Shown in pieces: positions 16,571 through 20,670 of a stretch of 64,000 nt of DNA. Origin of the DNA: Deltaproteobacteria bacterium. GTDB taxonomy: Bacteria > Desulfobacterota > Desulfobacteria > Desulfobacterales > C00003060. The position numbers and the translations under genes are program-made. Numbering within the stretch: the stretch's first letter is position 1; each line of letters opens with the position of its first letter. Where the stretch lies: assembly GCA_003647275.1 (NCBI GenBank), contig QMMN01000005.1, positions 1 to 64,000 of the forward strand, given 5' to 3'. The notes beneath the pieces are model-generated. The model saw only the letters and a program-made list of their open reading frames with translations, had not been told where the DNA came from and ran no database searches.

Positions 16571-17257
16571 ATGGCAATCAACATCGTTGAAAAAATTGAC
16601 GGGTTCGTCAAGGTCAGACATGTTATTGTCAGTGTATCTAACAAGCGTGGACTGGAAAGCTTTATACCATCACTCCTGGACATCAATCCAGAGATGCGGT
16701 TATTTTCAACAGGTGGAACATACAGCAGGATCAAGGAAATCCTCGGTAATCGAGCTTCTTCATGCCTGACGTCTGTGTCTGATTTCACCGGACAGCCAGA
16801 AACCCAGGGCGGGCTGGTCAAGACACTTGATTTTAAAATTTACCTTGGTCTGCTCACAGAGACTTACAATGATGCCCACCAGCAAGACCTCCAAAGGACC
16901 GGGGCGATTCCCATAGATATGGTTGTGGTTAACCTTTATCCCTTTAAGGAAACCATATCCAAAGAGGGTGTCACTGTAGAACAGGCCAGGGGGAATATCG
17001 ACATTGGAGGCCCATGCATGATAAGGGCCTCGGCAAAGAATTTCATTCGGGTTGCAGCCGTTGTCGATCCTGCCGATTATACAAGAATCATCTCTGAGAT
17101 GAAGGCAAACAGCGGCAAAATTTCCCTCGAACTTCGATACGAGCTGGCCAAAAAGGCCTTTGAACACACGGCCGTATATGACCGGTATATCGCAGATTTT
17201 CTCGCCAGCAGGCCTTTTGGCGATGTGAGCAGATGTTATCAGATCATGGAGGGCTAA
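16571..17257 (+). CDS. purH: IMP cyclohydrolase (PurH N-terminal domain as separate protein)
   Basis: This 228-residue protein corresponds to the methylglyoxal-synthase-like IMP cyclohydrolase domain of PurH, which closes FAICAR to IMP in the last step of purine synthesis. Visible signatures are VSVSNKRGLESFIPSL, the phosphate-site FSTGGTYSRI, TQGGLVKTLDFKIYLGLL, VVVNLYPFKETI and NIDIGGPCMIRASAKNF. In most bacteria it is fused to the AICAR transformylase. Here the transformylase is the next gene, beginning four bases after the stop. GGAAGGAGGGGG lies just before the ATG, a very strong ribosome binding site. Confidence 0.9.
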   Translation: MAINIVEKIDGFVKVRHVIVSVSNKRGLESFIPSLLDINPEMRLFSTGGTYSRIKEILGNRASSCLTSVSDFTGQPETQGGLVKTLDFKIYLGLLTETYNDAHQQDLQRTGAIPIDMVVVNLYPFKETISKEGVTVEQARGNIDIGGPCMIRASAKNFIRVAAVVDPADYTRIISEMKANSGKISLELRYELAKKAFEHTAVYDRYIADFLASRPFGDVSRCYQIMEG

Positions 17258-17261
17258 TACG

Positions 17262-18512
17262 ATGGCTGAAGATCTCAAAAAGATGTACAGAACCGTTATG
17301 GATGACCACTTTCCTTCAAACATGGAAATAAGCTTTGTAGAAGGAACCAATCGACAAACGCTCTTCTATGAGAAGGTGGTCTGGGTCATTGATGACGTTG
17401 AAAAGGGTCTCAGATATGGGGAAAACCCTGGCCAGGAGGCCGCCCTTTACAGGTTAATCAATGGTAATCTGGTCCTAGGCGAAACACAAACCATTCAGCC
17501 GGGTCGGTACCTGGCTTCTGATATCGAACTGTTGCAGTCAGGAAAGCATCCGGGAAAGACTAACCTGACCGATGCAGACAACGCCTTAAATATCCTGAGA
17601 TATTTTGTTGATAAACCAACCGTTGTTATTGTCAAACACAACAATCCGTGCGGGGTTGCACGGGCCGACTCCCTTGAGGAAGCATACACGAAAGCCAACA
17701 TTGCCGATCGTGTGGCCGCCTTTGGCGGTTGTATCGCTCTTAACCGTTCGGTGGACAAGCCCACGGCAGAGGCGATTAGCAGACAATATGCGGAAGTGGT
17801 TGTGGCCCCGGATTTTGAAGGTGGGGTCATGGATATCTTTGCTAAAAAGAAAAATCTCAGGGTCATCAGAATTGCCAATATCAACCGCTTACAAACATTT
17901 GTGGGCGAGCGTTTTGTGGAGTTTAAGAGCTTGATTGACGGTGGCATCATAGCCCAATGGTCTTTTGTGCCACAAGCGCGGTCCAAGGAGGATCTTAAGC
18001 TGGCCGAATGTGAGTATAAAGGAAAAACGTATCGCATCAAGCGGGAACCGACCGACCAGGAATATGCTGACATGCTGTTTGGCTGGTTGGTGGAATCCGG
18101 GGTCACATCTAATTCGGTCATATATGTCAAGAACGAGGTCACCGTGGGCATTGGAACCGGTGAACAGGACCGTGTGGGCGTAGCGGAAATTGCCAGGGAT
18201 AAGGCGTATCGCAAGCTGGCAGACCGCTATTGCTTTGAGCAGCTTGGTATCCCTTATAACGAGCTTACCGATGAGGAAAAGAAAAGGGAGATCGACGATA
18301 GAGTGGCCCAGGAAAAGGGTGGCCTGATCGGTGCAGCCATGGTCAGCGATGCCTTCTTCCCCTTCCGGGACGGCGTGGATGTGGGCATACGGGAAGGTAT
18401 CTCAGCGGTCATCCAGCCTGGTGGCTCGCTCAACGACTACCAGTCTATTGAAGCATGCAACGAGGCCAACGTGACCATGGTATATACCGGTCAGAGAAGC
18501 TTCAAGCATTGA
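17262..18512 (+). CDS. purH: AICAR transformylase (PurH C-terminal domain as separate protein)
   Basis: The 416-residue product is the formyltransferase half of PurH, which moves a formyl group from 10-formyl-THF to AICAR. The catalytic Lys-His motif is intact in [20 protein letters not shown] (about residues 122-141), and [12 protein letters not shown] marks the domain start. The C-terminal AICARFT signatures IQPGGSLND and [11 protein letters not shown] are present. It starts four bases after the cyclohydrolase gene, so the split is clean: each half has its own start and stop, with no sign of a recent frameshift. folC, a folate gene, follows on the same strand. Confidence 0.92.
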
Positions 18513-18667
18513 TACTTCCGGGAAAACCCCATCTACGGCATTCTGCTTTATCCCTGCCCCGTTAGATAAAAGTGCCCAAATCGGGATATTGATGGTGATA
18601 TCTAGGGCTTGTACAAAAGCGTCAGCATTGACCGTCCATGTAAAGATAACTATCACCAGATGTGACC

Positions 18668-19951
18668 ATGATCTCCTCCATTGACAAGCATCTGTCTGCC
18701 CTTTATTGCCTCAGGCGCTTTGGAATCAAGCTCGGGCTGACCACAATTTCCCGTCTGTTGAGAGGCCTCGGAAATCCTCAAGATCGTTTTCCCGCCATCC
18801 ACATTGCAGGCACCAACGGCAAGGGATCGATTGCTGCCTTCCTGTCTTCAGTCCTTGCACAAGGGGGATACAAGGTGGGCCTTTACACCTCCCCACACCT
18901 TGTTCGTTTCAACGAACGAATACAGATCAATGGATGCCCCATATCTGATAAAGATTTGGCACAAGTCGCAGAAGCGGTTCAGCGAATATATGCCCAGGCA
19001 GAGCCCCCGACTTTCTTCGAATGTGCCACTGCTATGGCTTTTTACTACTTTGCCTCAGAAGGGGTTGACTGGGCTGTCCTTGAAACAGGCATGGGCGGCC
19101 GCTATGATGCAACCAACATAGTCCATCCCAAGGCCAGCATCATTTCCAATATCAGTATGGAACACCAAGAATACCTTGGGAACACCTTGGCCAAAATCGC
19201 TCGTGAGAAGGCAGGCATTATCAAAAAAGGCGCTGGCGTTGTCACGGGAACTCGGCAGAAAGGCCCATTGCGGGTCATCGAGCAGGCCGCTGTAGAAAAA
19301 GGGGTGCCCTTGTACAGGCTCGGAAAGGAGATCAGGATTCGTAAAAACAAGGAGGGGTCCTTCACCTATCTGGGCATTCGTCGCCGATGGCCCCGGGTCA
19401 AGATTGGACTGCTCGGAGACCACCAGATCACCAATGCGGCACTGGCCCTGGGGACCGTTGAACTCTTGCAGGAGAAAGGGCTTCACCTGACGGACGAAGC
19501 AATTTACACTGGCCTCGCCTCTACCCGCTGGCCCGGTCGTCTTGAGGTCGCCTCAAAGGAGCCGTTTATCCTTTTGGATGGTGCACACAATCCGTCTGCG
19601 GTAAGGACGCTCAAGAAGTTTCTGGAAAACACCAGCGCCTTCCGTCGGTTGACCCTGGTGCTGGGTATTTTAAAGGACAAGGCATGGAAACCCATGCTAC
19701 GAGAACTCGCCGATGTTGCAGACCGTATCATTCTCACCCGGCCCCGGTATGAGCGTGCTGCCGATCCCCACGAATTGGCATCATTTGTGCGTCCCATGAA
19801 ACAGGACCTGGTCATCATACCCTATTTACCGGATGCCATATCGCTTGCCCTTGAAGAGGCCAGTCCCGCAGATGCTGTGTGCATCACCGGTTCTCTTTAC
19901 ATGGTAGGTGATGCCAAGGCCTATCTTGAGGGTTATCATGCTCCTTGCTGA
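18668..19951 (+). CDS. folC: Folylpolyglutamate/dihydrofolate synthase
   Basis: FolC is a Mur-ligase-like ATP enzyme that adds glutamate to dihydropteroate and to reduced folates. The P-loop HIAGTNGKGSIAAF, the folate-loop region YTSPHLVRFNERIQING, ETGMGGRYDATN, and the C-terminal LLDGAHNPSAVRTLK are all present. At about 428 residues it is full length. The ATG at 18668 is chosen; a GTG two codons earlier is equally possible and neither has a clear ribosome binding site. The gene overlaps the following corrinoid/Fe-S gene by 14 bases. Its place after the folate-using AICAR transformylase fits one-carbon metabolism. Confidence 0.93.
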   Translation: MISSIDKHLSALYCLRRFGIKLGLTTISRLLRGLGNPQDRFPAIHIAGTNGKGSIAAFLSSVLAQGGYKVGLYTSPHLVRFNERIQINGCPISDKDLAQVAEAVQRIYAQAEPPTFFECATAMAFYYFASEGVDWAVLETGMGGRYDATNIVHPKASIISNISMEHQEYLGNTLAKIAREKAGIIKKGAGVVTGTRQKGPLRVIEQAAVEKGVPLYRLGKEIRIRKNKEGSFTYLGIRRRWPRVKIGLLGDHQITNAALALGTVELLQEKGLHLTDEAIYTGLASTRWPGRLEVASKEPFILLDGAHNPSAVRTLKKFLENTSAFRRLTLVLGILKDKAWKPMLRELADVADRIILTRPRYERAADPHELASFVRPMKQDLVIIPYLPDAISLALEEASPADAVCITGSLYMVGDAKAYLEGYHAPC

Positions 19952-20564
19952 CACCTATCTAGACAGAATCGATTTTTTGAGATACCTCCCTCGAACCGAT
20001 TGTGCAAAGTGCGGGGCTAAGGCCTGTGAGGAATTCGTGGAAGATTTAAAGGCCGGCCGGAAAAAGCCTGCAGATTGTCCTGATATTCCCGAAAGTCTTT
20101 ATTATCCCTTTCAGGTTTCACTGGGTGCTGACAACCTCCTGCCAAAATTCCCTTGCCTGTCGGCGCCTCGCCCAGGCCCGACCGGATTGGTGGAAATGAA
20201 TAACCCCGACGAAGATAGCCCCATCCTGATCTCAGGAAACAACATCCATACGCAGGATGTCCTGACATCGATTCTGAGCACAACAAAAAGCCCATTTTTT
20301 CTGCTTTTTGTGGATACGAAGGGAGACACAGTCGATATGGCCGTAATCTATGAAACTCTGTCCGGCGAGCAGATCAGGAAAGAAGTCCTGAAATCAGGTG
20401 TTCTTGAAAAAGTTTGTCACCAGGAGATCATCATCCCCGGACTGGCCGCAGCCCTTGGCCATGACCTGATCAGATCCACAGGCTGGAAGGTTATCGTAGG
20501 GCCGATCTGTGCTGCGGAATTGCCCCTGTTTTTTGGAGACAAATGGCTGACACCTGCCACCTGA
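19938..20564 (+). CDS. Minimal corrinoid/iron-sulfur protein (CdhE/AcsC-like ends, no TIM barrel)
   Basis: The N-terminus carries a four-cysteine cluster, DCAKCGAKACEEF...DCP (C-x2-C-x4-C-x16-C), as in the large subunit of the corrinoid iron-sulfur protein of the acetyl-CoA pathway. The last 110 residues match that subunit's corrin-binding domain: FVDTKGDTVDMAV, EKVCHQEIIIPGLAA and GWKVIVGPICAAELP. The methyl-binding TIM barrel that separates these domains in CdhE/AcsC is missing; only about 50 linker residues remain. The start at 19938 lies inside the end of folC, with the two reading frames overlapping. A methyl-carrier, reductive-activation or cobamide-handling role is possible. No ACS/CODH genes are nearby. 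Confidence 0.75.
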   Translation: MLLADTYLDRIDFLRYLPRTDCAKCGAKACEEFVEDLKAGRKKPADCPDIPESLYYPFQVSLGADNLLPKFPCLSAPRPGPTGLVEMNNPDEDSPILISGNNIHTQDVLTSILSTTKSPFFLLFVDTKGDTVDMAVIYETLSGEQIRKEVLKSGVLEKVCHQEIIIPGLAAALGHDLIRSTGWKVIVGPICAAELPLFFGDKWLTPAT

Positions 20565-20582
20565 TCTGTGAGCGTTCAGGTG

Positions 20583-20618
20583 TGAAGCCTCCCCGTGCTT
20601 CCGCACGGGGGTTCTGCC
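20583..20618. repeat. Hairpin repeat GTGAAGCCTCCCC...GGGGGTTCTGCC
   Basis: CCCCGTGC and GCACGGGG pair across a four-base loop, flanked by GTGAAGCCT and TTCTGCC. The same frame of bases occurs at 22733-22768. This places it in the dispersed GAAG-CTCCC repeat family, in a subtype that resembles hairpins at the ends of IS200/IS605-type elements. No transposase or TnpB is nearby. Confidence 0.6.
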
Positions 20619-20670
20619 ATTAGGGATAGCCCTGAACCCTTGCGAAATCCGGGTTAAACGAGGCACGGAA

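Follow-up and report, generated by a model that had tools for sequence, protein, structure and literature searches.

A window of 64,000 nucleotides (the whole stretch of DNA analysed here) from a Desulfobacterota genome encodes a 208-residue protein, which we call mini-CFeSP, that consists of a four-Cys iron-sulfur (FeS) domain, a short linker and a cobamide-binding domain (CBD). The protein shares this last domain with the large subunit of the corrinoid iron-sulfur protein (CFeSP) and with HgcA, and it belongs, with its own cluster motif unbroken, to an old, widespread and unnamed family that is separate from both. Judged from its sequences, this family probably serves one-carbon chemistry as an accessory carrier of B12. 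No CBD proteins are better known than CFeSP and HgcA, yet neither reveals what a CBD does when a reductase domain is its sole companion; a widespread family that keeps the predicted tail pocket and changes the residue under the predicted cobalt site would therefore offer a minimal single-chain system for relating the alpha-face residue to cobalt chemistry. It might also supply a missing step between methyl-folate and other methyl acceptors in anaerobes. The family was not found in open-licence papers on CFeSP-like, AcsC-like or CdhE-like small proteins.

The two-domain anatomy that a first-pass annotation had read at 19938-20564 was recovered by profile searches and by alignment to CFeSP, as follows:

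19938..20564, + strand: mini-CFeSP gene, 208 residues (FeS domain, linker, CBD); from translation, Pfam, NCBIfam, orthologues and pN/pS
19986..20081, + strand: four-Cys FeS domain PF04060, residues 17-48, Cys22/25/30/47; from Pfam and the motif in common with CFeSP
20094..20180, + strand: short linker, residues 53-81, replacing the CFeSP TIM barrel; from a phmmer alignment to 2h9a
20181..20546, + strand: CFeSP/HgcA-type CBD, residues 82-203; from the C-terminal part of PF03599, NF003195 positions 326-447 and the tree
20591..20610, + strand: 8-bp GC hairpin directly 3' of the gene; from a fold of 20560-20660, z -2.57

The reading frame opens with an ATG at 19938 and closes with a TGA at 20564; the start listed for it at 19908 is a GTG within folC, and the ATG was taken instead. 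PF04060 matches residues 17-48 with 34.2 bits (cut-off 23), and the alignment places Cys22, 25, 30 and 47 on the four-Cys motif of CFeSP. Residues 82-193 match PF03599 (CdhD) with 58.6 bits (cut-off 24.8), covering profile positions 270-381 of 387 only, and NF003195 (AcsC/CdhE) is matched at positions 326-447 with an E-value of 2.5e-32. Given these E-values and the orthologues described below, a match by chance is excluded. The NF003195 score of 112 bits nevertheless lies far under the full-length cut-off of 306, as compared to 639.5 for the AcsC of the same genome, and the HgcA family score is 55 bits against 275 required. In a PDB search, residues 11-52 aligned to residues 6-47 of the CFeSP gamma chain in 2h9a and residues 84-203 to 324-443, and the TIM barrel is indeed gone, as had been claimed, with 31 residues standing in for a stretch of about 277. 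The further claim that both domains are almost intact holds for the four-Cys motif and is generous for the CBD, because the latter is only 33-40% identical to that of CFeSP and differs in its cap segment. An AlphaFold2 model of the window protein, run on the question of a Rossmann-like fold with an alignment of five sequences only, reached a pLDDT of 42.7. The hairpin behind the gene has no T run, and its role as a terminator is therefore uncertain.

Two segments of the CBD bear on whether and how a cobamide would be held:

20232..20252, + strand: predicted nucleotide-tail pocket S99-G-N101-N-I-H-T105, in the columns of HgcA Thr60/Thr66 (PMC7305189)
20322..20342, + strand: cap segment G129-D-T-V132-D133-M134-A135, with Met134 in the column of CFeSP Thr374 and HgcA Cys93

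HgcA contacts the cobamide tail through Thr60, Thr66 and the backbones of Val91 and Ala153, and the polar contacts of CFeSP are kept in HgcA (PMC7305189). By spacing and alignment, the corresponding columns of the mini protein hold Ser99, Thr105, Val132 and probably Ala192. Among the 41 family members compared, every one has Ser or Thr at column 99, Asn at 101, Thr or Ser at 105, Gly129 and Pro189, and these five columns are common to CFeSP and HgcA. The predicted tail contacts are thus conserved among orthologues, which strengthens the earlier suggestion of a stand-alone corrinoid carrier. The cap is unlike that of either relative. Although the CBD is present, the column of the CFeSP cap-helix Thr holds Met in 35/41 members (Met134 in the window) and Asn in the other six, all of one subclade (C), and it is preceded in all 41 by an Asp (Asp133) where CFeSP has Leu or Met and HgcA has Trp. 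Similarly, the columns of the HgcA cap motif NVWCAAGK read T-V-D-M-A-V-I, without the cap-helix Cys. CFeSP places a Thr nearest under the cobalt and Mmp10/DUF512 a Leu, and a Cys is believed to take this position in HgcA (PMC13331322); the Met of the mini proteins is a further variation on the residue under the predicted cobalt site. Mmp10/DUF512 proteins are class 2 cobalamin radical SAM enzymes with a CFeSP-like cap-helix cobalamin fold, whose Leu is comparable to the mini Met, but they are likened to the mini protein here by description and not by sequence. The potential of CoFeSP may be tuned into the physiological range by its lack of an alpha ligand (PMC4934906). With Met or Asn at the cap instead of Thr, the chemistry of the mini proteins may differ.

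Set beside the CFeSP gamma subunit AcsC/CdhE (NF003195; 2h9a, 4djd), the mini protein shares the order of FeS domain and CBD, the tail-pocket residues and the PG and GP motifs, but it lacks the TIM barrel, a small-subunit gene next to its own and the cap Thr. With HgcA (NF040863) and the HgcAB-like fusion (NF043039) it shares a CBD without a TIM barrel and the tail contacts, but in contrast to HgcA it has no transmembrane domain, as the protein stops after the CBD, and its FeS domain is the N-terminal part of the same chain rather than a separate ferredoxin.

To place the protein among its relatives, we searched the order (194 genomes) and the phylum Desulfobacterota (395 genomes) for the short FeS-CBD layout, which yielded further proteins of this kind, and built an unrooted maximum-likelihood tree of 68 CBDs (126 columns) that included 41 minis, CFeSP and HgcA. 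The minis within loci were picked by HMM, and three loci without a usable reading frame (L088, L103, L110) were left out. All 41 mini CBDs, which come from many Desulfobacterota families, fell on one side of a branch with support of 99/89, and CFeSP and HgcA on the other. Within the minis we recognize subclades A (the genus of the window), B, C, D, F and G and two single rows (E); given so few columns and several long branches this inner order is uncertain, although the split itself is supported. Therefore the protein is not a CFeSP that was 'reduced', as it was first described, in recent times, but belongs to a family of its own. A plasmid search gave one match only, weak and partial. Full CFeSP (AcsC) is encoded in 37/40 mini-bearing genomes as compared to 25/40 genomes without a mini gene (Fisher p 0.0025, relatedness ignored). 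In the phylum search, the majority of CFeSP-bearing genomes had no mini gene, and the pathway thus has no need of it.

In the genus of the window the gene is linked by position to folate genes:

16571..17257, + strand: N-terminal part of purH (MGS/IMP cyclohydrolase) as a separate gene; Pfam MGS and the start of AICARFT_IMPCHas
17262..18512, + strand: C-terminal part of purH (AICAR transformylase, a user of formyl-THF) as a separate gene; Pfam AICARFT_IMPCHas 75-311
18662..19951, + strand: folC, overlapping the mini gene by 14 nt; TIGR01499, 420.9 bits

The mini gene occurs in 15/22 congeneric genomes and directly follows folC in 14 of these. The coupling to folC noted earlier stands as the 14-nt overlap in four congeners, but a gap of 8-319 nt separates the two genes in the others measured. 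In the fifteenth genome (G574, L158 1653-6878), folC is replaced as neighbour by a run of acsC, acsE, pabB, a pabC-like gene and the mini gene, of which the AcsE-type gene (methyl-THF:CFeSP methyltransferase) and the pabC-like gene score under their NCBIfam cut-offs. Clade A thus has two separate folate links, one of them directly with the methyl branch of CFeSP, and the proposed connection to folate one-carbon chemistry gains support; the linkage to folC is limited to this genus. Upstream of folC lie the two purH halves, and purH is split into two genes (16571-18512) in congeners too.

The host genome, which is 96% complete in 172 contigs, carries, on another contig, a complete acsC (453 residues) together with AcsD, CODH/ACS, MetF-like and AcsE-like genes. 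Its sole AcsD-like gene belongs to this canonical CFeSP operon, and no other PF03599 protein is encoded near the mini gene, which thus has no small subunit of its own at the locus. A RACo/AcsV gene overlaps the gene that follows it, for a CooC-like ATPase (L124 340-3089). The mini orthologues of 14 other congeners are 66-78% identical to that of the window and have the same layout, and a comparison of the window gene with those of four congeners gives an overall pN/pS of 0.23-0.36, with similar values, about 0.23, in the FeS part and the CBD, as expected under purifying selection. The missing middle of CFeSP and the fragmented assembly might have suggested a recent truncation of acsC, a pseudogene or a binning artefact; this was rejected, with a very small chance left to it, in view of the orthologues and their nearly uniform folC context, a pN/pS as low as about 0.23, the separate CBD branch and the full acsC elsewhere in the host.

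Outside this genus the neighbours vary by clade, and the look at homologues and their surroundings revealed no single conserved partner. Three clade C minis (L046, L048, L107) lie in methanol:corrinoid methyltransferase clusters with MtaB, MtaC-like and MtaA-like genes, and the clusters of L046 and L048 also include a RamA-type activase (TIGR04270, 742 bits) and rubrerythrin. Three others of this clade (L045, L047, L086) lie in arsenic-type clusters with genes for an ArsP-type permease, ACR3-like or ArsM-type proteins, a low-molecular-weight-phosphatase-type reductase and a DGC-domain protein. CobW-like GTPase genes were read by eye near clade C minis. Clade B minis are found near a CooC-like ATPase; an ATPase related to the host CooC-like one starts a clade B cluster (L040 2232-2981). 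In clade G (L095-L111) the mini gene forms a near-constant block with a REC-only response regulator and GlgC. In most of these loci a gene for the alpha-ribazole phosphatase CobC, which scores above the TIGR03162 cut-off, lies downstream of the block; cobD/cbiB-like genes, again read by eye, adjoin L097.

The iron-sulfur end is less uniform than the CBD. The window protein and 14/15 congeners keep all four Cys, as do clades A, C, D, E and F save for two proteins, L084, where Tyr replaces the fourth Cys, and that of the congener G041 (L051 9552-10154), where a 27-nt in-frame deletion takes out three of the four while the CBD is still constrained. In clade B the third Cys is Arg, and in clade G the second is never present. 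A [4Fe-4S] cluster is therefore to be expected in the window protein by virtue of its motif, yet it is no trait of the family, and reduction by such a cluster could operate in some lineages at most.

We tentatively favour, at somewhat under even confidence, an accessory stand-alone cobamide or methyl carrier that works beside CFeSP. The CBD would grip the nucleotide tail of a cobamide in the base-off state, and the N-terminal [4Fe-4S] cluster, acting in the window lineage as a reductase on the same chain, would reduce Co(II) to Co(I). A second protein, a TIM-barrel methyltransferase of the AcsE type, proposed because the mini protein lacks a barrel, would then let Co(I) accept the methyl group of methyl-tetrahydrofolate, and the methyl group would be handed on to another acceptor. 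The sequences themselves show the anatomy, the kept tail columns, the selection, the separate family, the co-occurrence with CFeSP and the gene context; we infer cobamide and cluster binding, electron transfer, methyl transfer and the identity of the partners. The carrier reading draws on the homology of the CBD to those of CFeSP and HgcA with all 41 sets of tail columns kept, on the intact four Cys and the purifying selection in both domains of the window protein, on the full CFeSP operon and RACo/AcsV in the host together with the co-occurrence with CFeSP, on the folC adjacency and the acsC-acsE run of G574, and on the corrinoid settings of distant clades (MtaB, MtaC-like and RamA-type proteins, the CooC-like ATPase, CobC). 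It is weakened by the breaks in the Cys motif, the frequent absence of minis, their varying partners, the changed cap residue and the restriction of the folC link to one genus.

Some of these same observations would suit a cobamide chaperone or reserve, whose CBD binds free base-off cobamide and supplies apo-CFeSP, MtaC or further corrinoid proteins with it, the FeS domain being of minor importance and dispensable. The retention of the CBD in clades B and G despite their missing Cys, the CobC and cobD/cbiB-like genes of clade G and the CobW-like GTPases of clade C all point this way; but in most lineages no genes of cobamide synthesis lie near the mini gene, nothing connects the GlgC of the clade G block with cobamides, and the strongly kept cap segment suggests cobalt chemistry beyond carrying, so we regard this as a possibility of lesser weight. 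Reductive activation, raised in the first-pass annotation, would have the FeS domain pass low-potential electrons while the CBD mimics CFeSP to dock activases of the RACo or RamA type, or methyltransferases. Such activases are possible partners, of unrelated fold, and the mini protein has no ASKHA domain. The intact Cys of clade C minis clustered with MtaB, MtaC-like and RamA-type genes, and of 14/15 genomes of the window lineage, would fit an electron adaptor; however, the host already has RACo/AcsV, and the broken motifs of clades B, G and G041 mean that reductive activation or electron transfer is not the general function of the family, which leaves this reading unlikely. Less likely still is a scaffold or sensor whose CBD has lost cofactor binding: the altered cap residue, the Asp133 introduced beside it and the degenerate FeS domains of clades B and G are what such a protein might show, but Ser/Thr99, Asn101, Thr/Ser105, Gly129 and Pro189 would hardly have been kept throughout in common with CFeSP and HgcA. 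One could go further and propose, as a speculation to which we give rather little credence, that the minis are a third class of CFeSP-fold corrinoid protein, marked by an Asp-Met or Asp-Asn pair under the cobalt: a Met thioether or hydrophobic cap would tune the cobalt for a methyl transfer outside the repertoire of CFeSP and HgcA, the FeS reductase domain would be optional, and the acceptors would vary by lineage (the folate branch, methanol and arsenic clusters).

With respect to methionine synthesis, MetH (PF02574, PF02965) had no match in the host genome (G000, about 96% complete), and the idea of the mini protein as partner of a MetH without its activation domain was dropped on this account. 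PF01717 (MetE/core MetE) and NF002119, run with a core methionine synthase in mind as partner, likewise had no match in the host, with models that may miss distant core synthases. The congener G041 has a full MetE.
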